From the IMG/VR virus record IMGVR_UViG_3300047557_002986, positions 1-60,782 of that record: a stretch of 60,782 bases of DNA, one strand, 5' to 3'. This DNA comes from a virus. A model generated the notes under the pieces. That model did not search any database, had not been told where the DNA came from, and saw nothing but the letters and a program-made list of their open reading frames with translations. Position 1 is the first letter of the stretch. Each line of letters opens with the position of its first letter. The position numbers and the translations under genes are program-made. Shown here piece by piece: positions 21,837 through 60,734 of this stretch.

Positions 21837-24800
21837 TTACCACCAGGTAATTTTCACATATCCATTTCCACCATCACCACCGTCTCCATAGGTATTGGTT
21901 TCGGCAGAGTATCCACCTCCACCACCTCCACCGCCATAAGTTCCGGAACCACCATTTCCTGCGTTTCCTGATGAAGTTCCAGAAGCATAAGTGATTGCAC
22001 CAAAAGCACCACCAATTACATATAAATTGTTTGCATATGCAGTTGTTGCTAATAGGTTTGCAATTGTATTGGATGACCTTGAAGACCACACAATCGCGTC
22101 AGTAGAAGTAATAATTCTTCCACCATTACCAGCAGCAACATAAAGATTATTTACATAACCAATTTCATTAATCGCAGTTGCACCAAATCCTGATGTCTGT
22201 AAAGTCCAGGTGATTCTATCTGTGGATGTTGTAATGATTCCAGCATCACCAGCAGCAACAAAGACTGAACCATAAGAAAGTGCTCTAATTAAAGTTGTTC
22301 CAAATCCTGATGTTCTCATTACCCAAGAAATTGTATCTGTGGAGGTAATTAAAGCAGGACCTACACCAGCATAGTTAGTTGTTGCTGCAACATAGAATGA
22401 ACTATTAGAAGTAAGAGCAACCACCGAAATCATATTATTTGTAGTGGTTCTTAAAGTCCAAGTGATTGTATCAGTTGAAGTGCTTAGATATGCACCTTCT
22501 CCAAGAGCAGCAAGAACACTTTGAGTTGCAGTTGTAAGTGTTCCACCAGCACCACCAGCAACATAAAGATTATTACCATAAGTTAGTGTATTAGTGTTGG
22601 AAGTACCGAAACCTGATGTTCTTGCAATCCAAACAATTGCATCCGTGGAAGTTCTTGTAAATCCACCAGTATTACCTCCACCAATATAAAGATTATTCCC
22701 ATATAAAAGATAAACTGCCGCCGTGCCCCAAGTAGCAGTTCTTACCGTCCAAGCAATTGCATCAGTTGAAGTTCTTGTGACACCACCTGCAACAGCAACA
22801 TAAACACCTCCATAAGTTAAACCAGAGATATTAGAAGTACCAAATCCTGATGTTCTTAATGTCCAAGTAATAGTATCCGTGGAAGTTCTTAATAAACCAG
22901 CATTCGCACCAGCAAGATAAACACCATTACCAAACGCAAAGGTTGTGATTGCTGTTGCACCAAATCCTGATGTTCTTAATAACCAAGTGATATTATTGGT
23001 TGAAGTCATTAAGAAACCAACTTCACTTCTATAATTAGTTCCGTGTGCAAAGGAATAAGAACCACCAGAACCAATTGCAGTAATCGTTTGAGTATTGAGT
23101 GGTGCAGTTCTTGTAATCCAAGTTAAACCATCAGTAGAAGCATTTAGAAGTGCTCCGTTACCAAGAGAAGATAAAGTGTCTTGTGTTGAAGTCGTAATGA
23201 GACCTGCAATACCACCATTTACATAAATGTTGTTTCCATAAGTAACTGCTTGAATTACAGAAGTACCAAATCCTGATGTTCTTAAAGTCCAAGTGATTGC
23301 ATCTGTGGAACTGATACTTGCACCAGCAGAACCAGAAGCAACATAAACATTATTGTTATATGCAAGACCATAAAAAGCTTGTAGAACACCAGCAGTTCTT
23401 AAAGTCCAAGCAACTGCATCAGTAGAGGTTAAAAGTGTTCCAGAAGCACCACCAACAACATAAACATTTCCATAAAGAGATGAAAAGAAATTATTTGGAG
23501 TACCAGAAGTTCTTGTTTCCCAAGAAATTGCATCAGTAGAAGTTTGTATGACGCCGTTAAGACGAGCATTAAGATAAGTCGTTGTTGGTGAAGATGAATA
23601 TAAAAGACTGACTATGGAGTTTGTAATATTCCCTGTTGTTCTTGCAGTCCAACGAATATTATCAGTTGAAGTAAATAATGCACCAGTCCCAGTAACAACA
23701 TAAGTTGATGTTGGCAAATCGCCATAAGTAATTGCTTGCATATTGCTACTAGCGGTAGCAGTTCTTGTAGTCCAAGCAATTCCATCAGTAGAAGTTCTTA
23801 AAATACCAGAAGCACCTGCTAATACATAAGGTTCATTACCTGTTGTTGCAGTGCCAGATTTTCCAGAAACATAAAGAAGTCCATTACCACCAGTAGTTTG
23901 ACCAATCTGTACTGTTGTTCCAGAAGTTCTTGCAGTCCAGTTAATTGAATCTGTGGATACTCTTAAAATACCAGATGCACCAGCAGCAAAGAAATTAGTA
24001 CCATCATACATTGAAGTATAAATTGCTGATGCAGTACCTGATGTTCTTTGAGTCCACATAACAGCAGAACCAGTACCACCAATTAAATACTCACCATTGA
24101 AGTAAGTTACACCAGCAATATTTGTTGCACCAAATCCTGATACACTTGAAACCCAGTTAATACCATCAGTAGAAGCAGTTAAAGTACCAGCATTACCAAC
24201 AGCAACATAAGTCGTTCCACTGGATGCTAATTGAGTAATTGCAGTCGTACCAAATCCTGATGTTCTCTGGAACCAAGTTGTGGTAATTGCTTCACCACCA
24301 AGAACATAAGTTGAACCTTGTTTAATCAGAGCATTCAATCCTCTCTGTGCTCCTGAGGTTCTTTGTACCCAGTTGATACTATCAGTAGAAACCATTAAGG
24401 ATGCTTCATTAATATAATTCACACCAGCAGCAAGATAGAAGTTATTATCTGCATAAACAGCATTAATCTGCTGTGAATTAGATGCTGTGGTTCTTATAGA
24501 CCAGGTGATACTATCAGTTGAGAAGGTATAATAAGCACCATTACCATAAGAAGAAAGTATTGCTGTTGATGAGGTGTTTATAAATGAACCACCACCAAGA
24601 ACATAAGTATTACCAACAGAGATAAGTGCGTTTATAGTATTTCCACCAGTACTAGAAGTTCTTTGTGTCCAAGTGATTGCATCTGTTGAGATTGTTAAGG
24701 TTCCAGGAAGACCACCAGCAACATAAAGATTGTTTGCATATGTTAATGCATTTATAGAAGATCCACCAAACCCAGAAGTTCTTTGAGTCCAAGTAATTGT

Positions 24801-27800
24801 ATCTGTTGAAGTTACTAATAATCCAGCAAGACCACCAGCAACATAGGCATTTGTTTGACCTGATGCATAAGCAAATGCAAGTACAGTACTTGAACCAAAT
24901 CCAGAAGTTCTTAATTCCCAAATAATTGCATCTGTCGAAGCATTAAGGAAAGTAGTACTACCTGCAAGATAAATTGGTGTTGGTGTTGTTGGTGCATAAA
25001 GAAGTGCATATATAGTATTCGTACCAAATCTTGCTGTTCTTAAAGTCCAAGTAATTCCATCGGTTGAGGTATTTAATCTTCCGCCATTACTACCAGCAAC
25101 ATAAGTTGGTGTTGGTAATGCTCCATAAGCAACTGAAAAGATTTCGGTTGTACCAAATCCTGCATTTTGTACTGTCCAAGAGATTGTATCTGTTGAAGTT
25201 GTTAGAGTTCCACCAATACCACCAGCAACATAAAGATTGTTACCAAAAGTAACTGCTCTTATAATACTTGCACCAAATCCTGATGTTCTTTGAGTCCAGT
25301 TAATAGCATCAGTAGAAACTGTTAATGCTCCTCCACCACCACCAGCAACATAAAGATTGTTTCCAAAAGTAACTGCTTGAATTGTAGATGTACCAAACCC
25401 AGAAGTTCTTAAAGTCCAACTTACAGTTGTTGCAAGACCACCACCGAAGAATGAGGTTCCCAAAGAACCCAGAGCATTCATACCTAATGTTGTACCAGCA
25501 GTTCTTAAATACCAACTGCTAATACCTGTGGATAATGCACCACCACCTGCACCACCACCACCACCAATATTTCCAGTATAAGAAGTAGGAATTCCATTTG
25601 CACCATTACCACCTGCATTTGTTCCACCAGTTGCAGTATAAGTGTTTCCGTAATAGTAAGAAACAACATTACCACCAGTATTGGTATTATAAGCACCACC
25701 AGCACCACCAGTCACTTGGAATGGAAGTGTTTGTGTGATGTTATTAGAACTTGCAAGTGCTGAAAGTCCATTACCACCTGCAACACCAGAAACTGAAATG
25801 AGTGGATTGAGTGTTGATGCTGCTGAGGTTCCTGCGGTTCCTCCTGTAACAGCAGTACCAGAAGCACCACCACCAGCAGCAGCACTTAAAGTATATGTTG
25901 CTCTTCCATCAAGAAGATTAGAACTCCAAGTGATTGTGGTGTTGGTTCCTGAAAGACCTGATGATTGTGCAAAACCAGCACCAGCAATATAAAGATTATT
26001 TTGATAGAGTAAATCATAAATGCTGCCGGATATCACGCCAGAAGTTCTTTGAGTCCAAATGATTGCATCCGTTGAAGTGTTTAGAATTCCACCATTACCA
26101 CCAGCAACATAAAGATTGTTTCCATAAGTAATTGTAACAATTTGAGTTGTGCCAAATCCTGATGTTCTTAATGTCCAGGTAATTGCATCTGTTGAAGTTG
26201 CTAGAGTTCCACCATTACCACCAGCAACATAAAGATTATTGGCATAAGTAATTGCAACAATTTGACTTGAACCAAATCCTGATGTTCTTAATGTCCAGGT
26301 AATTGCATCTGTTGAAGTGGTTAGAGTTCCATCTCTACCACCCGCTACATAAAGATTATTTGCATAAAGTAAAGAATAAATGATTGATGAACCAAATCCA
26401 GAAGTTCTTTGAGTCCAAGTAATTGCATCTGTTGAAGTTGTTAGTGCTCCATTAAAACCACTAGCAACATAAAGATTATTTCCATAAGCAATTGTAACAA
26501 TTTGACTTGAACCAAATCCTGATGTTCTTTGAGTCCAAGTGATTGCGTCGGTTGAGGTTGCTAATGGTGCAGAAGGAGTACCATAACCACCAGCAACATA
26601 AAGATTATTTGCGTAGATAATATCTCTAATTAAACTTGTGCCAAATCCAGAAGTTCTTAAAGTCCAAGTAATTCCATCTGTTGAAGTGTTTATAGTATCA
26701 CCAGCAGCAACATAAAGATTGTTTCCATAAGTAAGTGCAAGAACACCTGTTGTACCAAATCCAGCAGAAGTTCTTAAAGTCCAAGTGATTGCATCAGTAC
26801 TTGTCCATAAAGGTTTAGTGCTTCTTCCGCCACTTCCAGCAGAACCAGGAGTCACTGTAAGTGTTGTTGCATCACCAAGTTCGGGTCTTCGTATTAACCA
26901 AGCATTATAAGCACCAGAACCTCCACCACCACCAGAACCTAATGTTCCACTATCTCTTCCTGATGCTCCACCACCACCTGCACCAATTGCTTCAATATAA
27001 AAAGTTGATGCAGTTGGTGGAACATAGAAGGTTTGTGGAATTGGTAATGTAAACTCTTGTGTTCCTTTATAAGTGATTGCAGTACTATTGGTAGAAGTTA
27101 AAGAAGTCCAGTTTGATTTCTTACTTACATATTGTGAGGTTGCAATCTGTCCTAAACCACCACCAAGAACATAAGTACTTGCACCAAATCCTGATGTCCA
27201 AATCGTTTGTGAAAGATTTGAAGTACGAATCGACCAAACAACTGCATCCGTTGAAGTAACTAATAAACCACTATCACCCATAACAACATATAAGTCATTC
27301 AAATATCTAACAGACTGATAGTTAAGATTGGTTGGATTAATTCGATAAGTCCAAGCAATAGAATCTGTTGATGTTGTAATCGTTCCAACATCACCAACAG
27401 CAACATAAGTACCATTTAAGTATTCAACATCATTTACATTTACTCCACCAAATCCTGATGTTCTTAAAGTCCAAGTGATTGTATCTGTGGAAGTGCTGAT
27501 AATTCCATTATTTGCTCCAAGAATATAAAGATTGTTTCCATAAGAAACTGATTGTAGAGTTGTGAGACTATCAATACCAGAGGTTCTTAAAGTCCAAGTG
27601 ATACTATCTGTGGATGCTGATAAGAAGAATTGGTTAAGATAATCAGTACCATAAGTGAGGTAAGAGTTACCACCATAAACCAATCCTTTTCGATTGATAC
27701 TTTGAGTGTTGGTTCCTGTGGTTCTTAAAGTCCAAGCAATACCATTTGTTGAAGTGAGAAGTGTTGCACCATCTCCAAGATTTGTAAGAGATGCATAAGT

Positions 27801-30800
27801 TCCTGATGCGGTATATCCAGAGTTTGCTGCTGCAACATAAGTATTATTTCCATATGCAACATTATTAATTGTTGCTGGAATACCTGATGTTCTTGCAATC
27901 CAAGTAATTCCATCTGTGGAAATAAGATTTGTACCAGAAGTATCAGAAGCACTATAAAGATTATTGCCAAAATCAAGTGCTGTAATGGATGTTGAGAGAC
28001 TTGAAGTTCTTAATGTCCAGGTGATGGTATCTGTGGAAGTGTTAAGAATACCAGTATCACCAGCAACAACATAAAGATTATTACCGAAAGTGACTGTACG
28101 AATGGTTGTAAGTCCAAATCCTGATGTTCTTGCAGTCCAAGAAATCGTATCCGTGGAAACTGCTAAGGTACTATTGGAATTATAATCACTAAATGCAGCA
28201 AGATAAAGTGAAGGACTTGAAGTAATTGAATCTACTTGTTGAACATTTGGTATTGAAGTTCTTATATTCCAGGTGATGGTATCAGTAGAGGTTGATAGAA
28301 GTGCTCCATTACCTAGATTGGTGAGTTGTGAGTAGGTTGCTGTGGTTAGAGTTCCATTATCACCACCAGCAACATAGAGATTGTTTGCATAAAGAAGTGA
28401 ATATATAACACTTGTACCAAATCCAGAAGTTCTTGAACTCCAAGTAATGGAGTCTGTTGAAGTTGCTAAGACACCAGCAATACCACCAGCAACATAAAGA
28501 TTGTTTGCATAAGTAAGTGCAATAGGACCACTAGTACCAAGACCTGATGTTCTTAATTCCCAAGTAATAGAGTCTGTTGAAGATGCAATTCCACCTCCAA
28601 CAGCAAGGGCACCAGCAGCATAAAGATATCTACCATTTGCATAAACAAAAGAACGAACAATTCCAGAAGATATTCCAGATGTTCTTGCTTCCCAAGTAAT
28701 TGCGTCTGTTGATGCAAATACTCTAGTAGTAGAACCTACAAGATAAAGATTGTTTAGATAATTTAATCCATATAATCCTACTGTTGTACCAGAAGTTCTT
28801 AATTCCCAAGTAATTGCATCTGTTGAAGTTGTTAGTGCTCCATTAAAACCACTAGCAACATAAAGATTATTTCCATAAGCAATTGTAACAATTTGACTTG
28901 AACCAAATCCTGATGTTCTTTGTGTCCAACTAATAGAGTCTGTTGAAGTGTTTAAAGTTCCACTATCACCAACAGCAATATAAAGATTGTTTCCATAAGT
29001 AAGTCCTCTTATTTGACTTACTCCAAATCCAGAAGTTCTTTGAGTCCAAGTGATTGCGTCTGTTGAAGTGTTTAGAACTCCACCATTACCACCAGCAACA
29101 TAAAGATTATTCCCATAAGTTAGTCCAAGTATAAGACTTGCACCAAAACCAGAAGTTCTTAAAGTCCAACTCACAACAGGACTTAAACCACCAATCAAAT
29201 ACCTAGAACTATCAGCATAAAGTGAAGTAATGCTATTTCCATAAACACCAGCAGTTCTTAAAGTCCAGGTGATGTTATCTGTTGAAGCAATTATCACACC
29301 AGGATTTGAAATATAATCACTACCAGCAGCAAGATAAGAAGAACCAGCAGTGAGTTTATTGATTCTAACTAATCCTTGTCCTGTGGTTCTTATCGACCAA
29401 GAAATACCATTCGTAGAAACATTTAAACGAGCACCATTTCCAAGTGAGGATAGAATACTTGAAGTTGTTGATTGAAGTTGTCCTATTCTTCCAGCAGTAA
29501 TAAAAGTATTATTACCAAATGCAGAACTTCTTTGAGCATTAGAAATAAGACCGAAATTGCTTGTTCTTAAAGTCCAAACAATTGCATCAGTTGAAGTTCT
29601 TGTTGAACCACCATTTGATGCTAAAACATAAACATTATTTCCATAAGAAATATCAACGTAATTTGCAGCAATACCAGCAGTTCTTAAAGTCCAAGTGATT
29701 GTATCTGTTGAGGTTTGTACTGTATTAGAAGCACCAGTTCTAGAAGCAGCAAGATAAAGATTAGAACCATTCGTACCTAATACAACTCTAAAAGGCATAC
29801 TAGTTGCAGCAGTTCTTGCAACCCAGTTAATAGTATCAGTCGAAACTGCAAGTGTTGTATTGGAATTATAATCACTCAAAGCAGCAAGATAAAGTCCTGG
29901 TGTGGATACAATTGAATCTACTTGTTGAACATTTGGTATTGAAGTTCTTATATTCCAGGTGATGGTATCAGTAGAAGTTGATAGAAGTGCTCCATTACCT
30001 AGATTGGTTAAAGATTCATAGGTTGCTGTGGTTAGAGTTCCACCAAAACCACCAGCAACATAAAGATTATTACCAAAGGTAAATGAACCATTAGATGTAC
30101 TGCTTGTACCAAATCCTGATGTTCTTTGAGTCCAAGTGATTGCATCTGTTGAAGTGTTTAAAGTTCCACCAGAACCAGAAATAACATAAAGGTTATTTTC
30201 ATAGGAAATATTATTAATTTGAAGAGCATTAAATCCAGCAGTTCTTAAAGTCCAAGTAATTGCATCTGTTGAAGTGTTTAGAATACCACCAATAACACTA
30301 CCACTCATAGAACCACCAGCATAATAAGTGCCGTTAATATAATTAAATGAATAAATTGTTCCTGTACCAAATCCTGATGTTCTTAAAGTCCAAGAAATTG
30401 CATCAGTTGAAGTTGCTAAATGCCCATTATTTGCAGCACCAGAACCAATAAGATAAAGGTTGTTTCCATAACCAAGTCCACGAAATCCATTAGTTCCATA
30501 TACTAATGGTACTTGTGTCCAACTAATTGCATCTGTTGAAGTGATAATAATGTTTGAAGACAAATCCTGAGAAACTGCAACAAAAGTACTTGTTGGAGAA
30601 GTACCATAAGTTAGATATCTAATATTTGTTGTACCATATCCTGATGTTCTTTGAGTCCAAGCAATTCCATCAGTTGAAGTTGATAAGATTCCACCATTAC
30701 CACAAGCAACATAAGTATTGTTTGCATAAAGAAGTGCTCCTATTTGACTTGTACCAAATCCAGAAGTTCTTAATTCCCAGGTGACTGCATCAGTTGAAGT

Positions 30801-32606
30801 AGTTAAAGTTCCACCAGTACCACCAGCATAATAAGTATTATTTGCATAGATAAGTCCAAGTATAACACTTGTACCAAACCCAGAAGTTCTTTGAGTCCAA
30901 CTCACGACTGGTATAAAACCACCAACCAAATATCCATTATCATCAGCATAAAGTGAAGTAATTGTATTTCCATAAACACCAGCAGTTCTTAAAGTCCAGG
31001 TGATGTTATTGGTAGAAACAGAAATCGCACCATCTACACCAGCATAAGTACTGTTTGATGCAAGATAATAAGAAGAATTAGAAGCAAGATAATCAATCTG
31101 TGAAATACTAGATGTTGTGGTTCTTGTAGTCCAGGATACTGCGTCTGTTGATACTGTAAGAAGTGCTCCTGTGTCTATGAGTGCTGATGCTGTGGTTAGA
31201 GTTCCACCAGAACCACCAGCAACATAAATATTGTTTCCAAATGTAAATGCTCTTATTTGACTCGTACCAAATCCAGAAGTTCTTTGAGTCCAAGTAACTG
31301 CATCTGTTGAAATTGCCAAGTTACCAAAGTTTGAACCAGCAATATAAAGATTATTTTCATAAAAAAGTGTTTGTACATTATTTGTACCAAACCCAGAAGT
31401 TCTTTGTGTCCAAGTTACTGAATCTGTTGAGGTAGTTAAAGTTCCAGCAACACCACCAGCAACATAAAGATTGTTCCCATAGGTAAGTCCAATAATAATA
31501 GAAGTACCAAACCCAGAAGTTCTTTGAGTCCAAGTGATTGCGTCTGTTGAAGTAGTTAGAGTTCCAGTATCACCAACAGCAAGATAAGTTACTGTTGGTG
31601 TTGTTGGTATATAAAGAAGTTGTAATATTCTAGTTGTACCAAATCCAGAAGTTCTTGAAGTCCAGGTGATTGCGTCTGTTGAAGTGGTTAGAGTTCCACC
31701 GACACCACCAGCAACATAAGCATTTGTTTGACTTAATGCATATATAAGTGTTCTTATTTCACTTGTACCAAACCCAGAAGTTCTTTGTGTCCAAGTGATT
31801 GCGTCTGTTGAAGTGTTTAATGCACCACCAGAACCACCAGCAACATAAAGATTGTTTGCATAAGTAAGTGCAAATATACCACTTGCACCAAACCCAGAAG
31901 TTCTTTGTGTCCAAGCAATTGCATCTGTTGAAGTGTTTAAGATTCCAGTATCACCAGAAACAATATAAAGATTATTTGCATAAGTAAGTCCAAGTATATT
32001 AGTTGAACCAAATCCAGAAGTTCTTTGAGTCCAAGTTGCAAGAGGATCATAAAGACCACCAGCAAGAAAATATCCCTGACCAAAAGTTACATCATTAATA
32101 TCAGCATCACCAAATCCAGAAGTTCTTGAAGTCCAGGTGACTGTTTCAATAAATCCACCAGCAACAAAGAATCCATTTCCGAATGTTACATCATTAACAT
32201 CTGTGGAACCAAAACCAGAAGTTCTTAAAGTCCAAGAGTTTGTTGGCGGAGTCGCACCACCTAAAAGATATTGATTATTTGCATATAAAACACTATATAA
32301 ATCACCACGAGCACCAGAAGTTCTTAAAGACCAGGTGACTGCATCTGTTGAAGAGATTAAAGATGCAGAACCACCCGCAGCAAGAAAGACATTATTATCA
32401 TAAGTAATTGCATTTACAGAACTTCCATCAATTCCAGAAGTTCTTGCAAACCAATAGACACCAGACTCTGGATAAACACTTAAAAAAGTTCCAGGTATTC
32501 CTGTTGTTTTAAGGCTTCTATCATCAACATAAGACTTATTTGCAGCATCTGTGGAATTAGATACTACACTTACACCTGTGACTTTATTACTGTCTAGTGT
32601 CGCCAT
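21837..32606 (-). CDS. Giant putative adhesin of 3589 residues with 77 propeller blades and glycine-rich domains
   Basis: A single 10.8-kb frame. Residues 1-40 (LDSNKVTGVSVVSNSTDAAN, KSYVDD) match the N-termini of the two downstream paralogues and fibre-type attachment domains. The bulk is a repeat of about 40 residues, YGNNLYVAGGNGGTLTTSTD then AITWTLRTSGFG, resembling Asp-box/BNR blades. I count 77 tryptophan-anchored blades. A glycine-rich domain (FYIEAIGAGGGGASG onward) lies near the middle, and another, with DGGDGGNGYVKITWW, closes the protein. As bracketed modules the blades make 11 seven-bladed propellers, eight of them nested inside others. The role is inferred: host-surface binding, possibly glycans. 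A late promoter lies just upstream at 32634-32641. A glycan block follows. It is unusually long for a phage fibre gene. Confidence 0.8.
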   Translation of the reverse strand: MATLDSNKVTGVSVVSNSTDAANKSYVDDRSLKTTGIPGTFLSVYPESGVYWFARTSGIDGSSVNAITYDNNVFLAAGGSASLISSTDAVTWSLRTSGARGDLYSVLYANNQYLLGGATPPTNSWTLRTSGFGSTDVNDVTFGNGFFVAGGFIETVTWTSRTSGFGDADINDVTFGQGYFLAGGLYDPLATWTQRTSGFGSTNILGLTYANNLYIVSGDTGILNTSTDAIAWTQRTSGFGASGIFALTYANNLYVAGGSGGALNTSTDAITWTQRTSGFGTSEIRTLIYALSQTNAYVAGGVGGTLTTSTDAITWTSRTSGFGTTRILQLLYIPTTPTVTYLAVGDTGTLTTSTDAITWTQRTSGFGTSIIIGLTYGNNLYVAGGVAGTLTTSTDSVTWTQRTSGFGTNNVQTLFYENNLYIAGSNFGNLAISTDAVTWTQRTSGFGTSQIRAFTFGNNIYVAGGSGGTLTTASALIDTGALLTVSTDAVSWTTRTTTSSISQIDYLASNSSYYLASNSTYAGVDGAISVSTNNITWTLRTAGVYGNTITSLYADDNGYLVGGFIPVVSWTQRTSGFGTSVILGLIYANNTYYAGGTGGTLTTSTDAVTWELRTSGFGTSQIGALLYANNTYVACGNGGILSTSTDGIAWTQRTSGYGTTNIRYLTYGTSPTSTFVAVSQDLSSNIIITSTDAISWTQVPLVYGTNGFRGLGYGNNLYLIGSGAANNGHLATSTDAISWTLRTSGFGTGTIYSFNYINGTYYAGGSMSGSVIGGILNTSTDAITWTLRTAGFNALQINNISYENNLYVISGSGGTLNTSTDAITWTQRTSGFGTSSTSNGSFTFGNNLYVAGGFGGTLTTATYESLTNLGNGALLSTSTDTITWNIRTSIPNVQQVDSIVSTPGLYLAALSDYNSNTTLAVSTDTINWVARTAATSMPFRVVLGTNGSNLYLAASRTGASNTVQTSTDTITWTLRTAGIAANYVDISYGNNVYVLASNGGSTRTSTDAIVWTLRTSNFGLISNAQRSSAFGNNTFITAGRIGQLQSTTSSILSSLGNGARLNVSTNGISWSIRTTGQGLVRINKLTAGSSYLAAGSDYISNPGVIIASTDNITWTLRTAGVYGNSITSLYADSSRYLIGGLSPVVSWTLRTSGFGASLILGLTYGNNLYVAGGNGGVLNTSTDAITWTQRTSGFGVSQIRGLTYGNNLYIAVGDSGTLNTSTDSISWTQRTSGFGSSQIVTIAYGNNLYVASGFNGALTTSTDAITWELRTSGTTVGLYGLNYLNNLYLVGSTTRVFASTDAITWEARTSGISSGIVRSFVYANGRYLYAAGALAVGGGIASSTDSITWELRTSGLGTSGPIALTYANNLYVAGGIAGVLATSTDSITWSSRTSGFGTSVIYSLLYANNLYVAGGDNGTLTTATYSQLTNLGNGALLSTSTDTITWNIRTSIPNVQQVDSITSSPSLYLAAFSDYNSNSTLAVSTDTISWTARTSGFGLTTIRTVTFGNNLYVVAGDTGILNTSTDTITWTLRTSSLSTSITALDFGNNLYSASDTSGTNLISTDGITWIARTSGIPATINNVAYGNNTYVAAANSGYTASGTYASLTNLGDGATLLTSTNGIAWTLRTTGTNTQSINRKGLVYGGNSYLTYGTDYLNQFFLSASTDSITWTLRTSGIDSLTTLQSVSYGNNLYILGANNGIISTSTDTITWTLRTSGFGGVNVNDVEYLNGTYVAVGDVGTITTSTDSIAWTYRINPTNLNYQSVRYLNDLYVVMGDSGLLVTSTDAVVWSIRTSNLSQTIWTSGFGASTYVLGGGLGQIATSQYVSKKSNWTSLTSTNSTAITYKGTQEFTLPIPQTFYVPPTASTFYIEAIGAGGGGASGRDSGTLGSGGGGGSGAYNAWLIRRPELGDATTLTVTPGSAGSGGRSTKPLWTSTDAITWTLRTSAGFGTTGVLALTYGNNLYVAAGDTINTSTDGITWTLRTSGFGTSLIRDIIYANNLYVAGGYGTPSAPLATSTDAITWTQRTSGFGSSQIVTIAYGNNLYVASGFNGALTTSTDAITWTQRTSGFGSSIIYSLLYANNLYVAGGRDGTLTTSTDAITWTLRTSGFGSSQIVAITYANNLYVAGGNGGTLATSTDAITWTLRTSGFGTTQIVTITYGNNLYVAGGNGGILNTSTDAIIWTQRTSGVISGSIYDLLYQNNLYIAGAGFAQSSGLSGTNTTITWSSNLLDGRATYTLSAAAGGGASGTAVTGGTAGTSAASTLNPLISVSGVAGGNGLSALASSNNITQTLPFQVTGGAGGAYNTNTGGNVVSYYYGNTYTATGGTNAGGNGANGIPTSYTGNIGGGGGAGGGALSTGISSWYLRTAGTTLGMNALGSLGTSFFGGGLATTVSWTLRTSGFGTSTIQAVTFGNNLYVAGGGGGALTVSTDAINWTQRTSGFGASIIRAVTFGNNLYVAGGIGGTLTTSTDTISWTVQNAGFGTTEIFSVAYGALPTPTYVAGSNGGRLNTSTDGITWTLRTARFGTNTIYALLYAPTTPTPIYLAGSTTFLNASTDAIIWELRTSGFGSSTVLAFAYASGQTNAYVAGGLAGLLVTSTDTITWTQRTSGFGGSSINALTYANNLYVAGGLPGTLTISTDAITWTQRTSSTGGNTINALISVGNTYVLGGGSFINTSSTAILSSYGNGAYYTFSTDSITWSIRTTASNSQQINAVYADNNFYLAAGVNYINEASLMVSTDSINWVQRTSGAQRGLNALIKQGSTYVLGGEAITTTWFQRTSGFGTTAITQLASSGTTYVAVGNAGTLTASTDGINWVSSVSGFGATNIAGVTYFNGEYLIGGTGSAVMWTQRTSGTASAIYTSMYDGTNFFAAGASGILRVSTDSINWTARTSGTTVQIGQTTGGNGLLYVSGKSGTATTGNEPYVLAGASGILRTSTDGIAWTTRTATASSNMQAITYGDLPTSTYVVTGTGALFTSTDNIRWTARTTGNITNSIVSLLYSSSPTTTYLNARLNGVIQTSTDAISWETRTSGTPNNFFSSLYGNVYVVGGASGTLLTSTDAVAWTLRTAGVLQAFYGLAYNNNVYVASGSAGASISSTDAITWTLRTSGFGTSVIQAVTYGNNIYVNGGIAGLITTSTQDTLSSLGNGALLNASTDGLTWITRTAPLNTQTITAIGSGGSYSFAHGTNYRSEVGFLMTSTNNITWLLRTSGFGATAITTFAFGNGVYLAGANAGLLRTSTDTITWTLRTSGFGTSNISGLTYGGVYVAVAGGVTRTSTDAIAWTVRTATWGTAAVYLLYGNNLYIGGGNTGGFTRTSTDAIVWIARTSGFGTSNTNTLTYGNNLYVAGGAGGTLTTATQSVLAALGEGAYLSTSTDTITWTLRTTTNNMISVVALTSNSSFYVAATTNYAGVGPALITSTDTISWVMRTSGFGTTLIRALSYGSVFVAAGDAGIITTSTDRITWTLQTSGFGATAINEIGYVNNLYVAAGNGGRIITSTDAIVWSSRSSNTIANLLATTAYANNLYVIGGAFGAITYASGTSSGNAGNGGSGTYGGGGGGGGYSAETNTYGDGGDGGNGYVKITWW
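21970..32468 (-). repeat. Array of 77 propeller blades arranged as nested seven-blade modules
   Basis: Approximate modules on the DNA (minus strand, right to left): P1 27125-32468 contains A 27785-32250. A contains B 29450-32155 and E 28315-29185. B contains C 31175-32050 and D 30005-30920. A stand-alone module lies at 25955-26815. F 21970-25525 contains G 24545-25435 and H 22500-24290, and H contains I 23160-24070. A module without inserts spans about 0.87 kb. Each opens at a tryptophan lacking the usual STDAI lead (for example PVVSW, TTVSW, AVMW). Each closes at a blade ending in TLTTA-like residues, often followed by LGNGALL. Confidence 0.7.
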
Positions 32607-45931: not shown

Positions 45932-48181
45932 TCAACCAATAGAAGGTGCAGTTAGAGCAACAGGAGTGTGCTCAACAGCAGCCAAATCTAGAGGAAAATT
46001 ATGTGCGTTCCTTTCGTGCATTACTTCGATCCCGAGGTTGGCACGATTTAGCACATCTGCCCAAGAATTAATAACACGATTCTGACTATCAAGGATAGAC
46101 TGATTTAGATTAATTCCGTTCAAATTGAAGGCCATGGTGCTTACACCAAGAGCAGTGAACCAGATACCTACAACTGGCCAAGCAGCAAGGAAGAAGTGCA
46201 GTGAACGAGAGTTGTTGAACGAAGCATATTGGAAGATAAGACGACCAAAATAACCATGTGCAGCTACGATGTTGTAGGTCTCTTCTTCTTGACCGAACTT
46301 GTAACCATAATTTTGACTTTCATTTTCGGTAGTTTCTCGTACTAGGCTTGAAGTTACTAGAGAACCGTGCATAGCACTGAATAGAGAACCACCAAATACG
46401 CCAGCCACGCCCATCATATGGAATGGGTGCATCAGAATGTTGTGCTCTGCCTGGAACACAAGCATGAAGTTGAAAGTACCAGAGATACCCAGAGGCATAC
46501 CATCAGAGAAAGAACCTTGACCGAAAGGATAGACCAGGAACACAGCAGAAGCAGCAGCGACGGGAGCACTGTAAGCAACACAGATCCAAGGACGCATACC
46601 TAGACGGTATGAAAGTTCCCATTCACGACCCATATAGGTATAGATACCAATAAGGAAGTGGAAGACTACAAGTTGGTAAGGACCACCGTTGTAGAGCCAT
46701 TCATCAAGGGAAGCAGCTTCCCAGATTGGATAGAACACATAACCCATAAGTTTCCATATGGTGTGGACTATATCATCACCCTAAATTGAGGGTGTCGGGC
46801 ACTTAAACCTGTTATTAAGGAGACTGAACTCCTCAGGTAGTCTCTGAACCTTTCCCAAGTGTACTTGGGACTTGGCTGCTGATTGCCATACCAGTAAAAG
46901 ACCATCCATAAAGTTGTTTCTTTTCTGCACGAAGAAGTTTTCCTATAAGAGCTTTGTTAGGAGTTTCAAAATATTCAATACTTTGAAGTTTCTCACAAAG
47001 TTTAGTAATACTTTCTTGTGGAGGAAGAGTAACAGTTTTTCCAGTTTTATGTTTCCAAGTCGTTGAGTTTTTTAGCATTTCTACTAAATCACCTTTTTGT
47101 CTTGAAAGTCCAACTTGCTTTCCATAAGTTTTACCAACTTTTTGTCTGGCAAGAAACTGGTTTTGAGTATTAGCAGAACCTCCTTTTTTTCCACCCTTTA
47201 ATCCTTGTTCTCTTTGCCATTCAGTATTCCAAAAAAGATTACCTTTTTCTTTATTACTTTTAACAGCAAGTTGAGAACGAAGTTTTACACTTTTAATATC
47301 TTGGTTCCATCTCATTTCATAAGCAACTTTGTCACCTATTTCCTGAAATGACAACCAACGATAATAATGTGCGAGTGTATGAATATGAGGAGGTAAGTAA
47401 ATCAGATTTTCTTTTTCGTCAGTTCCACCATTATGTTTTGGGACAATATGGTGTTTTTCATAATACTCACTATCAAAGTTGTTTGATTTACAATACTCAA
47501 TAAACTGTTCGTAGATAGTCATTAGGATAAAAGTGTATTCCATATTATTATTTATACATTTTTATCCTTTTACTGGGTTAGGTTTCCAGCAATTCACCCG
47601 ATTTTCTTATACCATTTCTGATATAAGGCACTCCTTTACGAATGCAATCCAATCGCATTTGAACTAGGAACAACAGCACCAGAAATGATGTTGTTTCCAT
47701 ACATTAGAGAACCAGCGACTGGTTCACGAATCCCGTCTCAACTTCATATAAACAACCATATCATAAGACTTAGGTTGTTACAGATTACTCTGTGAAGTTT
47801 GGACTATATCTTCACCCTTTATAAGTTATTAAAGGGGCTGGGCACTCTTGCCTGTTATTAAGGGGACTAAACCCCTCAGGTAGTCTCTGAACCTTCCTTA
47901 GGTGTACCTAAGGCTTGGCTGCTGATTGCCTTTCGGTTTCCAGCAATTCACCCAGTTTTAACATCACCCTTACGGATGAAGGACACAGATTAAAGCAGTA
48001 TGTCTACGGGAGGGGCGGCAATGAAAGCAACAATGAAACAAATAGTAGCAGCGAGAAGGGTAGGAATCATTAGAGTTCCAAACCAACCGACATAAAGACG
48101 GTTATTGGTAGAAGTTACCCACTCACAGAATTGTTCCCAAGTGTTACTTCCACCACGCTGACGAGCGATAGTAGCAGTCAT
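45932..48181 (-). CDS. psbA: Photosystem II reaction-centre protein D1, gene split by two group I introns
   Basis: Exon 1 is 48000-48181, exon 2 is 47642-47738, exon 3 is 45932-46735. Joined they code exactly 360 residues, the normal D1 length: exon 1 to FIAAPPVDI, exon 2 [20 protein letters not shown] ... AIGLH, exon 3 [20 protein letters not shown] ... [22 protein letters not shown]. Intron 1 splits codon 61 and intron 2 follows codon 93. Both junctions have exon U before and intron G at the end. Pairings are GACAU with GUGUC and GCAU with GUGC. D1 replacement keeps photosynthesis running in infected cells. Transcription is from a TTGACG-17-TATACT promoter; a terminator follows. Confidence 0.95.
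46833..47522 (-). CDS. Intron-encoded HNH homing endonuclease
   Basis: I favour the ATG at 47522 (229 residues: [20 protein letters not shown]), since the inverted repeat arm ends just before it. A frame from 47543 adds seven residues. The nuclease part is [20 protein letters not shown] followed by [13 protein letters not shown], an HNH site. The rest is basic, with [14 protein letters not shown] and a C-terminal [18 protein letters not shown] that reads through the ribozyme's Q and R elements. It would promote spread of intron 2 into intronless psbA. Confidence 0.8.
   Translation of the reverse strand: MTIYEQFIEYCKSNNFDSEYYEKHHIVPKHNGGTDEKENLIYLPPHIHTLAHYYRWLSFQEIGDKVAYEMRWNQDIKSVKLRSQLAVKSNKEKGNLFWNTEWQREQGLKGGKKGGSANTQNQFLARQKVGKTYGKQVGLSRQKGDLVEMLKNSTTWKHKTGKTVTLPPQESITKLCEKLQSIEYFETPNKALIGKLLRAEKKQLYGWSFTGMAISSQVPSTLGKGSETT
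47524..47568 (-). promoter_or_regulatory. Late promoter TATAAATA within an inverted repeat, intron HNH gene
   Basis: AGGATAAAA (47524-47532) is the exact complement of 47560-47568. TATAAATA lies between them at 47549-47556 on the minus strand. The proximal arm abuts the ATG at 47520-47522. Confidence 0.6.
47739..47999 (-). ncRNA. Group I intron 1 of psbA, minimal, without an ORF
   Basis: 261 bases only. It carries GTGAATTGCTGGAAAC near 47937-47952, AATCAGCAGCCAAG near 47913-47927, GGTTCAGAGACTACCTGAGG near 47875-47894, CTTAATAACAGG and GATATAGTCCA near 47801-47811. The splice helix is exon GACAU with intron GUGUC. No endonuclease is encoded, so its mobility would depend on another gene. Confidence 0.88.
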
Positions 48182-55165: not shown

Positions 55166-55807
55166 TTATTTTTTTCTAGCAAATCCAATTCCATAGTCTT
55201 GTGGGCAAGCATTTTCAATTACATCCCAAACATCCTTATTTAAATTTCTAACGAATAGATAAGGTCCAGTATGATGACTAGTATCATGGAATCCAACAAT
55301 ACCACCTTCATTAAGAAGATTTGAATATTCCCAATCTCTAAGAACTTGATTTACACTATGGTCGCCATCAATAAAAATAAAATCAAACTTTTCAATCCCC
55401 ATAGTTTTGAAGATTTCTACATTTTCCTCATAGTTTGAACTACTACCTTGAATTGTGTAGATGTTTTCACCACAATCAATCAGCCAACTACGGTCTTCAA
55501 TGTCAATTCCTACATACTTAGTTTCTTCTTTTTTATTTTTAAAGAAAACGTGAGCAAAAGAATTTTCACCATTTCTACCAATTCCAATTTCAAGAATTGC
55601 TTCACAATTATCACGAACTTTTAAAAATTGCTCCAACAAAGCTGCTTTGTTACACTCACTACACTCAACACCATCAAAAGGATTTAGAACACCAGGATCT
55701 TCTTCAATACCAGGCCAGATATGTAGAAAATGATTGATACCTGCTTCGGTATCATCATATGGGGTATTGCTTCTAATATCTTTGATAAGATCAGTTTGCC
55801 ACTTCAT
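55166..55807 (-). CDS. SAM-dependent methyltransferase (CmcI/Methyltransf_24-like)
   Basis: 213 residues. SAM-site AILEIGIGRNGENSFAHVFF, acidic residue in YVGIDIEDRSWLID, and FDFIFIDGDHSVNQVLRDWE followed by GGIVGFHDT. This set is typical of methyltransferases in polysaccharide and antibiotic clusters. It overlaps the GDPD-like gene by 17 bases. Confidence 0.8.
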   Translation of the reverse strand: MKWQTDLIKDIRSNTPYDDTEAGINHFLHIWPGIEEDPGVLNPFDGVECSECNKAALLEQFLKVRDNCEAILEIGIGRNGENSFAHVFFKNKKEETKYVGIDIEDRSWLIDCGENIYTIQGSSSNYEENVEIFKTMGIEKFDFIFIDGDHSVNQVLRDWEYSNLLNEGGIVGFHDTSHHTGPYLFVRNLNKDVWDVIENACPQDYGIGFARKK

Positions 55808-56285
55808 AAGGTTTAATCTCTTTTACTATTTTTTTATAAAAAATTGGATTATCAGTACAAATACCGTATCCTTCTTGTATGTATTCTGGATTTTGAGAGA
55901 ACAATTCACTATTTTCAGGCAAGACAATCACAGATTTTGAATATGGTAGTTGTCCGACTAAAACCCACCCAATTCCCTTGCTGGTTAAAGTGTATCGATC
56001 ACTCTCATGCCAAAAGTAGTTAAATTCTACCACAGAACTAGATATTTTTTCAAGTGCCTCACGATTCTTACAATGAATCCAAAGAACATCTTTATATTTT
56101 CTCAGCCATTCCATGGTCACATAATATTGAGGATCGTCGTGACCAAGATAACACTGATGATCCTCAACTCTCAAATCAATTTCAACATCAAATCCTTCAG
56201 CAATAGCCTCTTCAATATAATCGATACTATTTTCTCTAATTGGATTAATGCCAGTTAAATTGCCTCGATGAGAAATAATTTTCAT
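55791..56285 (-). CDS. Short glycerophosphodiesterase (GDPD)-like protein
   Basis: 164 residues: KIISHRGNLTGINPIRENSI, AIAEGFDVEIDLRVEDHQCY and LGHDDPQYYV give the two catalytic histidines (HRG, GHD) and the metal ligands E-x-D. A lysine-containing WIHCKN follows. It is much shorter than full GDPDs (about 250) but has an intact active site. Such short forms occur in surface-polysaccharide operons. A role in making or trimming a phosphodiester-linked substituent is inferred. Confidence 0.78.
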   Translation of the reverse strand: MKIISHRGNLTGINPIRENSIDYIEEAIAEGFDVEIDLRVEDHQCYLGHDDPQYYVTMEWLRKYKDVLWIHCKNREALEKISSSVVEFNYFWHESDRYTLTSKGIGWVLVGQLPYSKSVIVLPENSELFSQNPEYIQEGYGICTDNPIFYKKIVKEIKPYEVAN

Positions 56286-56286
56286 A

Positions 56287-57525
56287 TCAAAAATCTAGTA
56301 CCCACTCAGGCAAAGATCCACCACCAGTTTCATAACCCCATTTATCGATAGCGGAACGGAATTCTGGACCAGGAGTTTTATCAATTGCCTGCCTCATCGC
56401 CAACGCACCAGATAGAGTTCCACCAGGATGTCCATGAATTGCACCACCACAATTTGCAAGGAAGTCAGTTCCAAATTTCTCTGCAGTAGTATTCACGATA
56501 CCTGGATGCATTCCACAACTCAGTGCCGGGAGAACATTTCTCTTGTGAAGTGTTGCCATAGTTTGACGTAGTTCATCTTCGTCATCACTCAGATAACCAC
56601 CCCACATTCCAGCATGAATAGTATCCACACCACAAAGTCCAGCAAGATCGCATAGAACATCCCAATCAATACCAAATGCGTGCCTCTTATCAGTCAAAAT
56701 CTTGTCACCACTTTTTTGATAATGCATGAACAAAGGAAGATTCATTTTTCTTACGGAGTTGTAAACTCCAAGACCAGACCAGAAGTTGATATGAATTCCA
56801 TTACCACCATTATCTGCAACAAACTTAGCACGATCAAGAATAGTATGGTGATCACCATTAATGCAAAATGTATAAATTACATTTCTTCCACAGTTATTCA
56901 CAATATTGGAAATCAACTCTACACGATCCTCTAGACGGCAGAATGAAGGATTGGAAAGAATCTCATCTTCCTTAATAAAATCTACACCACCATCAAGAAG
57001 TTCCTTGACCATTTCAGCAAGAGTTTGTGGTGAAATACCGGTCTTTGGTTTTACAATTGCACCCGAAAGTGGTTTGTCATAGCGATTAACAAACTGACGG
57101 ATACCATCAATACCATTCTTGGGTCCAAGAAAAAATGATTCTACATCTGCAGGAAATTCTAGTTTCTGAAGACGACAAACTTTAAAAACATCAATGTCTA
57201 ACTGCCCACCCATTACTTGACAAAGAAGATGAGAAATACCGTCACCTTCCCAATCAGTATTAACCTTAGGAAAACCAATTTTAACTTTTCCAGAAAATTT
57301 TTGGGAGAGTTCCTGCTCATCTTCATAAATGACGCAAGATGCCAGTTCAAAAAGTTCATCACTTTCCCAGCGGTTACGAACTTTTGGATTACCTACACTT
57401 TGTCCAATTGCGAGATTCCAAGCAGCATCTCTCAGTGAACCAATTTGTTCATAAGATTCAATATAATATGTTGCAACTACACAGCGATTTTTTTCTTGTT
57501 CAGTTAATTCTCTAAAAAATTTCAT
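56287..57525 (-). CDS. RuBisCO-like protein (form IV type)
   Basis: 412 residues with the large-subunit fold markers. Retained residues: K175/K177 in GAIVKPKTGISP, the carbamylation-site lysine and metal acids in GGVDFIKEDE, H294 in LPLFMH, H327 in DTIHAGMWGGYL, S379 in LSCGMHPG, and the glycines in CGGAIHGHPGG. Changed residues: R295 is Y (MHYQ), and loop-6 K334 is Y (GGYL). Carboxylase activity is therefore unlikely, while enolase/isomerase chemistry, as in other RuBisCO-like proteins, is plausible. It overlaps the cupin gene by ATGA and lies in a glycan operon, suggesting work on a sugar phosphate or sugar acid. Confidence 0.85.
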   Translation of the reverse strand: MKFFRELTEQEKNRCVVATYYIESYEQIGSLRDAAWNLAIGQSVGNPKVRNRWESDELFELASCVIYEDEQELSQKFSGKVKIGFPKVNTDWEGDGISHLLCQVMGGQLDIDVFKVCRLQKLEFPADVESFFLGPKNGIDGIRQFVNRYDKPLSGAIVKPKTGISPQTLAEMVKELLDGGVDFIKEDEILSNPSFCRLEDRVELISNIVNNCGRNVIYTFCINGDHHTILDRAKFVADNGGNGIHINFWSGLGVYNSVRKMNLPLFMHYQKSGDKILTDKRHAFGIDWDVLCDLAGLCGVDTIHAGMWGGYLSDDEDELRQTMATLHKRNVLPALSCGMHPGIVNTTAEKFGTDFLANCGGAIHGHPGGTLSGALAMRQAIDKTPGPEFRSAIDKWGYETGGGSLPEWVLDF

Positions 57526-57848
57526 TTTTCAACCTCAAATTTATCAGATGGAATAGAAGGTACTTTTACAACAACTAATGTACAATCTTCAAGAAAAATT
57601 GGATCAGCAATCTCTCCCTTGGAAAATACGAATACATCACCACTATTTAACTCATTTCCCTGAACAACCATTTTACCAGTTATCAGGACATTATATTCGA
57701 TACTTTCTTTATGATAATGTGGTGCCCAGTATTCTCCCTTTTTATGTGTTAAAACACCGACTTCAAAATCTGATGTTTTTAATACCGAAGGTTCAAAGTT
57801 TCCAATAAACCACCCCCTAACATAATCAGTGATTTTTGTAATTTGCAT
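57522..57848 (-). CDS. Cupin-domain protein
   Basis: 108 residues. The first cupin motif is WAPHYHKESIEYNVLITGKM (H-x-H, E); the second part is GDVFVFSKGEIADPIF. Two histidines and a glutamate could bind metal. It may be a sugar isomerase, epimerase or binding protein. It sits between the nucleotidyltransferase and the RuBisCO-like gene and overlaps both. Confidence 0.8.
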   Translation of the reverse strand: MQITKITDYVRGWFIGNFEPSVLKTSDFEVGVLTHKKGEYWAPHYHKESIEYNVLITGKMVVQGNELNSGDVFVFSKGEIADPIFLEDCTLVVVKVPSIPSDKFEVEK

Positions 57849-58566
57849 TGTTTTTTACTTTTTCAATATAAAGTTGTAGATCTTCTGGAACTCCCACTGG
57901 ATTGTGTTGGTAGTTTGGAATATGATGAACACCTACTTTCAGTCCATCCTTTATCATATAGTTATAGGTTGGACCAACGTAGAATTCACCATTAGGAGCT
58001 CTATCATCACATTGTATCATATTTTCGGCACTGTGTACAAAATATTTACCTTTTCTCCAATAATGTATTCCATTTAAAGATATATTACTAATAACTTCCT
58101 TCTCTTTGATCTGTTCCACAAATCCTTCAAAGTTAACGCGGGCAAAACTATTTTTTGGAGTATTAGTACTATATGTTACGATCATACCATCATACTTATA
58201 GTACCTAGCGTTTAACAAGAATAATTCAGGATCCCATAACATTATTTGATCACAATTACATATAATTAATTCTTCCTCGTTATTAATGTAGTTTTTAAAT
58301 AAGAGACAACTTGAAGCAGGACCTTCGGTAGTTTCCTCAACACTAATAATTTTTGGATCTGGAAGAATTTTGTGAAGAAGGGTACATACCTGATCATAAT
58401 AACTATCTTTTCTAACCAGAAAATGATAAGTTCCTATTATTCCAAGAGATTCAACAGCACATTGAATCATTGGTTTACCATTAATCTCTATTAGTGGCTT
58501 GGGTATTTTATACTGATCTCGGGGAAATCTAGTTCCCTCTCCTGCCATGGGTATTACTATATTCAT
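57826..58566 (-). CDS. Sugar nucleotidyltransferase
   Basis: 246 residues from the ATG at 58566: MNIVIPMAGEGTRFPRDQYK, then IPKPLIEINGKPMIQ, the NTP_transferase signature (GxGTRF...PKPL). IICNCDQIMLWDPELF gives the metal aspartate. It should activate a sugar phosphate with an NTP. With the RuBisCO-like protein, cupin and GDPD-like protein, it could form a path to an unusual nucleotide sugar. A longer frame to 58629 lies over the upstream gene. Confidence 0.85.
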   Translation of the reverse strand: MNIVIPMAGEGTRFPRDQYKIPKPLIEINGKPMIQCAVESLGIIGTYHFLVRKDSYYDQVCTLLHKILPDPKIISVEETTEGPASSCLLFKNYINNEEELIICNCDQIMLWDPELFLLNARYYKYDGMIVTYSTNTPKNSFARVNFEGFVEQIKEKEVISNISLNGIHYWRKGKYFVHSAENMIQCDDRAPNGEFYVGPTYNYMIKDGLKVGVHHIPNYQHNPVGVPEDLQLYIEKVKNNANYKNH

Positions 58567-59349: not shown

Positions 59350-60060
59350 TTATTCAGAGTAAAATTTAAATGGTAATTGAATATTAAATTCGTCAATTTT
59401 CATATTATATGGAATACCCAATTCTTCTACTAAAGAATGCATTGCAACTATTCCGTCTTTATAATGGTGTTCAATATTAGAAAGTTCTTTAAAAAAGTTT
59501 AATTGATTTCGCGGACAGATAAAAAACCAATCGCAAAATTTCCTATCCCAACCAGCAATATATCCATTTTGATTTACAATACAATCGCTATCAAAATTTT
59601 TAAGTTCTAACTTCTTTTCAAAAATCAAATCAGATCTAATCCTGATAAAGTATTCATAATCTTCCAAATTATCAATTAAATTAATACAATCAACTATTCC
59701 CTGATATTGACACTTACTTCTATAAAATTGATCTCTACTCTGTTCAATCGTTAAATTCATTCCAGGATATAACGATAGTCCATTGTAATTTGATACGTCA
59801 AAATTATATGGTTTAATTACATTTATTTTTTTTAGATTAAATGGAGTATATACTTCAATAAAATCTTCTAATTCATTTGATTCGAATGTTTTATCAAAAC
59901 AATGATGGATTTTTTTATTTTTCCAATCATCAGTCCATTGAAAGTGTGCATATATGTCATAATCACCCAGTCCTTTTAATAAATTTTCAGATATCCCAGG
60001 AAATGTTTTTTTGACAAATCTAGGATATCCAGAAAAACATACAGCAAATTTTTTTTTCAT
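59350..60060 (-). CDS. Putative glycosyltransferase of the CGQPR-type family
   Basis: 236 residues from the ATG at 60060, which overlaps the upstream TGA: MKKKFAVCFSGYPRFVKKTF, DYDIYAHFQWTDDW, FYRSKCQYQGIVDCINLIDN and YFIRIRSDLIFEKKLELKNF. Third member of the family. The longer frame to 60081 lies in the methyltransferase gene. Confidence 0.6.
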   Translation of the reverse strand: MKKKFAVCFSGYPRFVKKTFPGISENLLKGLGDYDIYAHFQWTDDWKNKKIHHCFDKTFESNELEDFIEVYTPFNLKKINVIKPYNFDVSNYNGLSLYPGMNLTIEQSRDQFYRSKCQYQGIVDCINLIDNLEDYEYFIRIRSDLIFEKKLELKNFDSDCIVNQNGYIAGWDRKFCDWFFICPRNQLNFFKELSNIEHHYKDGIVAMHSLVEELGIPYNMKIDEFNIQLPFKFYSE

Positions 60061-60734
60061 AACTTTATGAAGTCCAAGCACACTACTGAAAGTTTTTGAC
60101 CATTATATACAATATAACAATCTGTATTTTCATATTCTTTTTTGTACTCACCATTTAGAGCAAATCCATTTTTTTCAACATATTCAATAATTTTGGATGG
60201 TGAAATAAATTCACCATTTGTATTACTAACATTACAATCTGTTGAAACTATAAAGTGCCCATTCTTTTTCAAAGGTCTGTGAATTTTTTGAGAAACTCTT
60301 TCCCATTGATTTAAATCATGAACTTTGTTTGTAAATGATTCGTGATTAAAATGAGTAACTGAGCAGACATCAGAAAAAATATCTACGCTATTGTCTTCCA
60401 GTTTATCAAGTTCTACAAAAATATCTCCAGTAATTAGTTTAGAAAGTGCATTTGTTCCAAGTTGAGAAAAGTACTTATACCCCTCCAGATCAATAGCAGT
60501 TACATCATGTCCCATTTTTTGTGCTAAGTGTGGAAAGGCTCCAGCAGCAGATCCTATGTCTACGATTTTTTGTGGTTTATCAAATTGCTTTACTATTTCA
60601 AGTAAACTTACAACTTTACAAACATGAGTACTGTGTTCCCATTGATGCTGAGGTGGAAAACAATTCCACTGATTTTCTAATAGAATTTTATTAAAAATCT
60701 CAAAATCCTGTAAATTAAAAACTTTATTATACAT
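60057..60734 (-). CDS. Class I SAM-dependent methyltransferase
   Basis: 225 residues. The SAM site is KIVDIGSAAGAFPHLAQKMG, with VTAIDLEGYKYFS next and DIFSDVCSVTHFNHESF as motif IV region. A later GHFIVSTDCN fits the sixth strand. It is the most upstream gene of the glycan operon in this window. The 48 bases beyond its start hold no clear promoter. Confidence 0.75.
   Translation of the reverse strand: MYNKVFNLQDFEIFNKILLENQWNCFPPQHQWEHSTHVCKVVSLLEIVKQFDKPQKIVDIGSAAGAFPHLAQKMGHDVTAIDLEGYKYFSQLGTNALSKLITGDIFVELDKLEDNSVDIFSDVCSVTHFNHESFTNKVHDLNQWERVSQKIHRPLKKNGHFIVSTDCNVSNTNGEFISPSKIIEYVEKNGFALNGEYKKEYENTDCYIVYNGQKLSVVCLDFIKL

Follow-up and report, generated by a model that had tools for sequence, protein, structure and literature searches.

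The window analysed here is a 60,782-nucleotide stretch of viral DNA, positions 1 to 60,782 of IMG/VR record IMGVR_UViG_3300047557_002986. The source contig belongs to a T4-like cyanophage: it carries psbA and psbD and shows a ~80% match to Synechococcus phages. Its minus strand includes an intact open reading frame for a RuBisCO-like protein (RLP), which lies in a cluster with the following neighbours:

55166–55807, minus strand: methyltransferase (Methyltransf_24, 8.2e-8), an optional neighbour found at 22/75 viral loci
55791–56285, minus strand: short GDPD-like phosphodiesterase, 164 aa, with HRG, EN, ExD and GHD motifs
56287–57525, minus strand: RLP, 412 aa (PF00016, 3.4e-43)
57522–57848, minus strand: small cupin, 108 aa (Cupin_7 2.3e-4, below cut-off)
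57826–58566, minus strand: sugar-phosphate nucleotidyltransferase (PF12804/PF00483), ATG start
60057–60734, minus strand: methyltransferase (Methyltransf_11, Pfam match), on the 5' side of the cluster

The stop codon of the cupin gene and the start codon of the RLP gene overlap in the tetranucleotide ATGA (57522–57525), with the nucleotidyltransferase gene next upstream in the cluster. The GDPD-like gene begins 1 nt downstream of the RLP gene, and methyltransferases lie at both flanks. The original prediction, which coupled the RLP to a cupin and placed it beside a nucleotidyltransferase, a GDPD-like protein and methyltransferases, thus describes the gene order correctly. The RLP itself matches Pfam RuBisCO_large (E = 3.4e-43), and its AlphaFold2 model (pLDDT of 91.6) aligns in Foldseek with RuBisCO structures from Pyrococcus (2d69) and Thermococcus (TM of 0.85). 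The N-terminal domain and the TIM barrel bearing the FxKDDE/FIKEDE motif identify the RuBisCO superfamily fold.

Two other regions of the window were noted. Two group I introns (Rfam RF00028, 47778–48009 and 46744–47019) divide the psbA gene (45932–48181, minus strand) into three exons, and an HNH/homing endonuclease open reading frame lies within the split region at 46833–47543. Positions 21837–32606 (minus strand) form a single open reading frame of 3589 aa that adjoins tail-fibre-like genes.

Active site and phylogenetic position

We aligned 226 proteins with spinach RbcL, whose residue numbering is used except where positions of the RLP itself (such as K185 or Y311) are given, and recounted residues after removal of duplicates. 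The RLP and its viral and cellular relatives are hereafter called the clade. Three active-site stretches of the RLP gene are:

56962–56979, minus strand: FIKEDE, containing the lysine predicted to be carbamylated, K185 (equivalent to K201), and the putative metal ligands D187 and E188; invariant in the clade
56713–56718, minus strand: Q270-K271, equivalents of spinach H294-R295 by alignment
56593–56595, minus strand: Y311, at the position of loop-6 lysine K334; tyrosine in 110/110 clade members

The RLP keeps K201, D203 and E204 (the FIKEDE motif), K175, K177, H327, S379, G381, G403 and G404. Relative to carboxylating RuBisCO, seven residues are replaced (E60G, T65N, W66P, N123G, H294Q, R295K and K334Y), and the carboxylase set of forms I–III (17 positions, E60 to G404) is therefore incomplete. 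The original prediction correctly listed FIKEDE, K175, H327 and the phosphate-site glycines as kept and a tyrosine at the loop-6 position, but it counted H294 among the kept residues, where the window has Q270, and read R295, which is K271, as tyrosine. Both readings stem from a register in which MHYQ was taken to contain H294-Y295, which we rejected because three alignments agree that it is off by two residues. A gap-free alignment of spinach LLLHIHRAMHA with LFMHYQKSGDK of the window equates H268 with H292, Q270 with H294 and K271 with R295, and the Legionella form, FYQKSGDG, fits the same register. The histidine at position 292 is not the invariant residue, since 11 clade members, including Legionella, have phenylalanine there and one has methionine; position 294 is glutamine in 111/111 members.

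Across ~110 aligned members, the clade reads G60, N65, P66, G123, K175, K177, K201, D203, E204, Q294, K295, H327, Y334, S379, C380, G381, G403 and G404, a signature absent from the other aligned RuBisCO relatives. Position 334 is tyrosine in 110/110 clade members and in 0/108 other relatives, which have lysine (101), arginine (4) or serine (3). In RuBisCO, E60, T65, N123, H294 and K334 serve CO2 addition. Judged by the alignment, these residues are lost from the RLP; the predicted enolising metal centre (carbamate-Lys/Asp/Glu) is kept together with K175 and K177, and the putative phosphate sites are partly kept. Because ~110 members share this signature, carboxylation by the clade is very unlikely.

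All viral and cellular relatives form one clade with support of 100/100 in a careful tree of 74 rows (unrooted; three long or odd rows excluded), in which forms I–III are united (98/90), MtnW forms its own group (100/99) and OiaX-type RLPs are separate from the clade. A quick tree of all rows agrees. Forms I, II and III, MtnW, the OiaX group and a single IV-Photo-like protein all branch apart from the clade. We looked for the placement that would contradict a non-carboxylating RLP, nested in one of forms I to III with a full set of catalytic residues, and did not find it. With carboxylase residues missing and a position outside forms I–III, the RLP is a form IV protein in the broad sense. Among NCBIfam models, the form III match is strong in E-value (2.8e-57) but scores 194 against a cut-off of 497. 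The RLP likewise stays below the cut-offs for MtnW (165 and 122.6 bits versus 409 and 513.6) and OiaX (154 bits versus 700), from both of which the tree also separates it. A new, separate lineage within the known RuBisCO superfamily, with a new genomic role, is strongly supported by clade, residues and synteny. The alignments also contained another divergent RuBisCO-family group with D/H at position 204 (L142, from a Vibrio nigripulchritudo plasmid, L191 and L194); L142 adjoins transketolase-like and FGGY kinase genes.

Conservation and distribution of the cassette

In the 75 viral loci that include three genes either side of the RLP gene, a nucleotidyltransferase occurs within those three genes in 73, a cupin in 61 and a GDPD-like protein in 60. 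The cassette genes are almost always on the same strand and frequently overlap, with a median upstream gap of −4 nt. Certain viral and SAR11 loci lack the cupin, others lack the GDPD-like gene, and the cassette has no constant kinase or reductase that would round off a named pathway; these gaps count against the biosynthetic model proposed below.

Deep-branching cellular members retain the set: the order GDPD–RLP–cupin–nucleotidyltransferase is found in Azospirillum oleiclasticum (L099) and an Elusimicrobia assembly (L098), and RLP–cupin–nucleotidyltransferase in Sphingobacteriales. The module is shortened in SAR11 (GDPD–nucleotidyltransferase–RLP–nucleotidyltransferase), in Legionella and in DPANN archaea, with RLP–nucleotidyltransferase in Legionella and Nanoarchaeia. 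The two nucleotidyltransferases that flank the RLP in SAR11 single-cell genomes (L090–L096) are divergent, and the first forms a separate subgroup together with a Nanoarchaeia copy. Cellular modules lie mostly in glycan gene clusters. The Legionella pair adjoins LicD, SAR11 neighbours include GT17, GT61 and epimerases, and other loci have GT41, SIS isomerase, epimerase, cytidylyltransferase-like and GT8 genes nearby. Together with the seven replaced carboxylase residues, this setting agrees with the original prediction of a non-carboxylating RLP in a phage glycan operon.

The partner proteins differ in how firmly they can be assigned. By its profile matches, the nucleotidyltransferase is a genuine sugar-phosphate type: it exceeds the cut-offs of PF12804 (29.1 versus 27) and PF00483 (26.2 versus 21.2), has the conserved columns G-x-G-x-R-F, K and D106, and matches 4evw at 5.6e-30. 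A longer reading from a TTG start at 58629 is less likely than the ATG start. The GDPD-like protein has no Pfam match and is ~90 residues shorter than GDPDs; its catalytic motifs HRG, EN, ExD and GHD are invariant, its profile matches GDPD at 2.8e-5, and the best Foldseek matches of its AF2 model (pLDDT of 95.5) are all GDPDs (E = 3e-3, TM of 0.67), which places it in that family. The cupin's identity is only loosely confirmed, by profile matches to cupin dioxygenases, sugar isomerases and KdgF, the best PDB matches being quercetin dioxygenases.

Relatives of the RLP are encoded by 225 IMG/VR contigs in the first count and 297 in the later one, including contigs of 172–518 kb. We therefore rejected the idea of a rare gene. 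We also rejected that of a cyanophage-only gene: among 50 tested contigs, many of them fragments, only 6 have photosystem II reaction-centre genes, and 9 have the T4-type major capsid protein. The gene is thus no one-off of T4-like cyanophages, the setting named in the original prediction. A very large virus contig (L053, 518,643 bases) encodes a T4-type major capsid protein as well as the RLP cassette. The RLP has no match among 50,697 phage records or in PHROG, and a viral structure library contains no RuBisCO fold (best TM of 0.39). The earlier statement that such a gene lacks a description stands for these three resources, but several papers, discussed below, report viral 'rbcL'. In a search for true RuBisCO in IMG/VR, pattern scans built on alignments of forms I, II and III and of OiaX-type RLPs confirmed no relative; each scan used two short peptide patterns, so this result is a bound rather than proof.

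Cellular relatives are patchy, occurring in 2/297 SAR11, 4/22 Legionella and 1/82 Azospirillaceae genomes; the other matches in Azospirillaceae are other RuBisCO forms. One of these (L240, 32%) looked closer, and we rejected it as a member because it is an ordinary RLP of the OiaX/NonPhoto type. Elusimicrobia, Sphingobacteriales, Verrucomicrobiia, Pacearchaeota, Nanoarchaeia and Woesearchaeota contribute one assembly each, and some assembly-derived matches (L082–L087 and L104) may be phage or mis-binned contigs.

A proposed role in glycan synthesis

On balance, we favour a model in which the RLP lineage serves surface-glycan synthesis as a ketose-phosphate enzyme whose product is activated by the nucleotidyltransferase. 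The RLP would bind a ketose in phosphorylated form, probably a pentulose with one or two phosphates or a closely related C4–C6 compound; a pentulose phosphate is our first guess, and a doubtful one. Carbamylated K185 with Mg, K159 and K161 would remove the proton next to the carbonyl to form a Mg-bound enediolate, as in RuBisCO and MtnW, and the enzyme would release, with no CO2 added, a ketose phosphate that has been isomerised, epimerised or rearranged in some other way. The cupin probably works on the same intermediate. In the next step, the nucleotidyltransferase would couple the phosphate to a nucleotide, giving NDP-X, from which transferases encoded nearby would hand X or phospho-X to the glycan, and the GDPD-like enzyme may trim or recycle phosphodiesters. 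The glycan in question would, in phages, be host LPS or capsule, or a glycosylated part of the virion. The enzyme set thus points towards the new route to an activated sugar-like compound that was originally proposed.

Cassettes in isolated phages are consistent with this model. The NDP-sugar cassettes of the Synechococcus phages S-CAM9, B23 and DSL-LC03 share the nucleotidyltransferase and GDPD families of the RLP cassette (the B23 GDPD is 68% identical to the GDPD-like protein of the window) but have no RLP and carry an HAD phosphatase in its place. In S-CAM9 and B23, the HAD phosphatase is fused to a nucleotidyltransferase of the same subfamily, which nests among RLP partners in the nucleotidyltransferase tree. 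S-SM2 has a related nucleotidyltransferase beside a class II aldolase. In S-SKS1, the fusion partner of the nucleotidyltransferase is DHBP synthase, an enzyme of ribulose-5-phosphate, which suggests an NDP-activated C4 ketose made from ribulose-5-phosphate; because this nucleotidyltransferase is distant (34% identity, long branch), the hint is weak. The 3,4-dihydroxy-2-butanone 4-phosphate synthase part of that fusion (AGH31555, L232:4001–5428) matches PF00926 at 5.4e-65. Since an HAD or DHBP synthase accompanies the nucleotidyltransferase in phages lacking an RLP, the upstream ketose-phosphate enzyme looks exchangeable, and exchangeable modules appear to feed one activating enzyme.

Of the other explanations, a decarboxylase or retro-aldol enzyme acting on a sugar-acid phosphate, OiaX-like and recruited to glycan precursor synthesis, is unlikely but survives best. 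OiaX is also an RLP in which N123 is glycine and the phosphate site is partly changed, and, outside the clade, some of the better-scoring matches are OiaX and NonPhoto RLPs. OiaX-type proteins nevertheless retain K334, R295, H294 and T65, all lost in the clade, and form a separate group in the tree; four-carbon acid sugar kinases, which lie beside related RLPs on plasmids, were not seen beside the clade.

The co-occurrence of an RLP and a cupin is also reminiscent of methionine salvage, which uses the aldolase-type dehydratase MtnB, the RLP enolase MtnW, the HAD phosphatase MtnX and the cupin dioxygenase MtnD. An analogous set acting on a deoxy or diketo sugar phosphate, with the cupin as oxygenase, would fit the HAD and class II aldolase genes that adjoin the related nucleotidyltransferase in phage isolates, an HAD–nucleotidyltransferase fusion near the RLP in L078 and L079, and the quercetin dioxygenases that are the cupin profile's best PDB matches. 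We consider it quite unlikely: MtnW is a clade of its own with different residues, HAD is rare at RLP loci, the canonical fourth histidine of the cupin motif is not evident, and the nucleotidyltransferase needs a phosphate.

T4-like phages glycosylate DNA, and a cassette with nucleotidyltransferases and glycosyltransferases could instead make a modified nucleotide or DNA decoration. The presence of the module in bacterial and archaeal surface-glycan clusters (LicD, GT41 and GT61), where no DNA-modification genes were seen, makes this improbable. Loss of many RuBisCO active-site residues could also mark a binding or regulatory relic without catalysis, an idea to which we give very little weight given that bacteria, archaea and viruses alike keep the catalytic Lys/Asp/Glu centre unchanged. 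A true CO2-fixing RuBisCO that boosts carbon fixation in infected hosts is hardly credible at all: E-value-based annotation (NCBIfam form III, 2.8e-57) would name it so, and a viral rbcL1, not necessarily a member of the clade, is reported to be active when expressed together with rbcS (PMC12615777), but the clade has other residues at E60, T65, W66, N123, H294, R295 and K334, the NCBIfam match falls far short of its cut-off (194 versus 497), and the neighbours are glycan genes.

Taken further, the glycan-synthesis model would make the cassette a four-gene module, common to bacteria, archaea and viruses, with a reaction new to the RuBisCO superfamily and an undescribed nucleotide-activated ketose or polyol destined for surface glycans, and the clade the main or only RuBisCO-family gene of IMG/VR, with some viral rbcL reports misread. 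We regard this combined proposal as possible, with slightly less than even prospects. To our knowledge, few reactions have been assigned to RuBisCO-like proteins, and most of these are catabolic. The clade would be a deep RLP lineage tied to biosynthesis; hundreds of virus contigs encode it, and phage records, PHROGs and the viral fold library have no counterpart. It would offer a testable new reaction in the superfamily and, probably, a new activated sugar.

Comparison with known RuBisCO relatives

Viral 'rbcL' has been presented as a carbon-fixation gene (PMC8506154, PMC12615777, PMC13390420, PMC13288924), and a viral 'RbcL-like' protein has been reported (PMC12607003). These auxiliary metabolic genes resemble the clade as RuBisCO-family genes on virus contigs; in the accessible parts of these sources, all but the 'RbcL-like' protein are read as carbon fixation and no glycan cassette is mentioned. 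Within the main texts of open-licence papers, we found no link between an RLP and glycan synthesis and no active-site analysis of a viral RLP. As the clade is the sole RuBisCO relative recovered by our IMG/VR scans, some reports of viral carbon fixation may be misread. E-value alone would label the clade RuBisCO, so the active site, and K334 and H294 in particular, should be checked before a viral 'rbcL' is taken as evidence of carbon fixation.

The best sequence and structure matches of the RLP are form III RuBisCOs (Pyrococcus 2cwx/2d69 and Thermococcus 3a12; ~27% identity), which have all carboxylase residues, whereas seven are replaced in the window. With form IV RLPs (MtnW/YkrW, OiaX, IV-NonPhoto and IV-Photo) the clade shares the fold, the carbamate-metal centre and an incomplete carboxylase site, but it is separate from them and alone has Q294, K295, Y334, N65-P66 and C380. 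It also sits in a glycan cassette, whereas MtnW and OiaX belong to methionine salvage and apiose breakdown. Outside the known forms, the Global Ocean Sampling survey described further RuBisCO homologues (PMC1821046), and IV-GOS is one of seven RLP subgroups (PMC10173188). IV-GOS and the unassigned homologues resemble the clade in lying outside the known forms and are known only from ocean metagenomes, a pattern that a viral origin would fit. It is plausible that the clade is IV-GOS, a candidate identity that would give these orphan ocean RLPs a possible origin.
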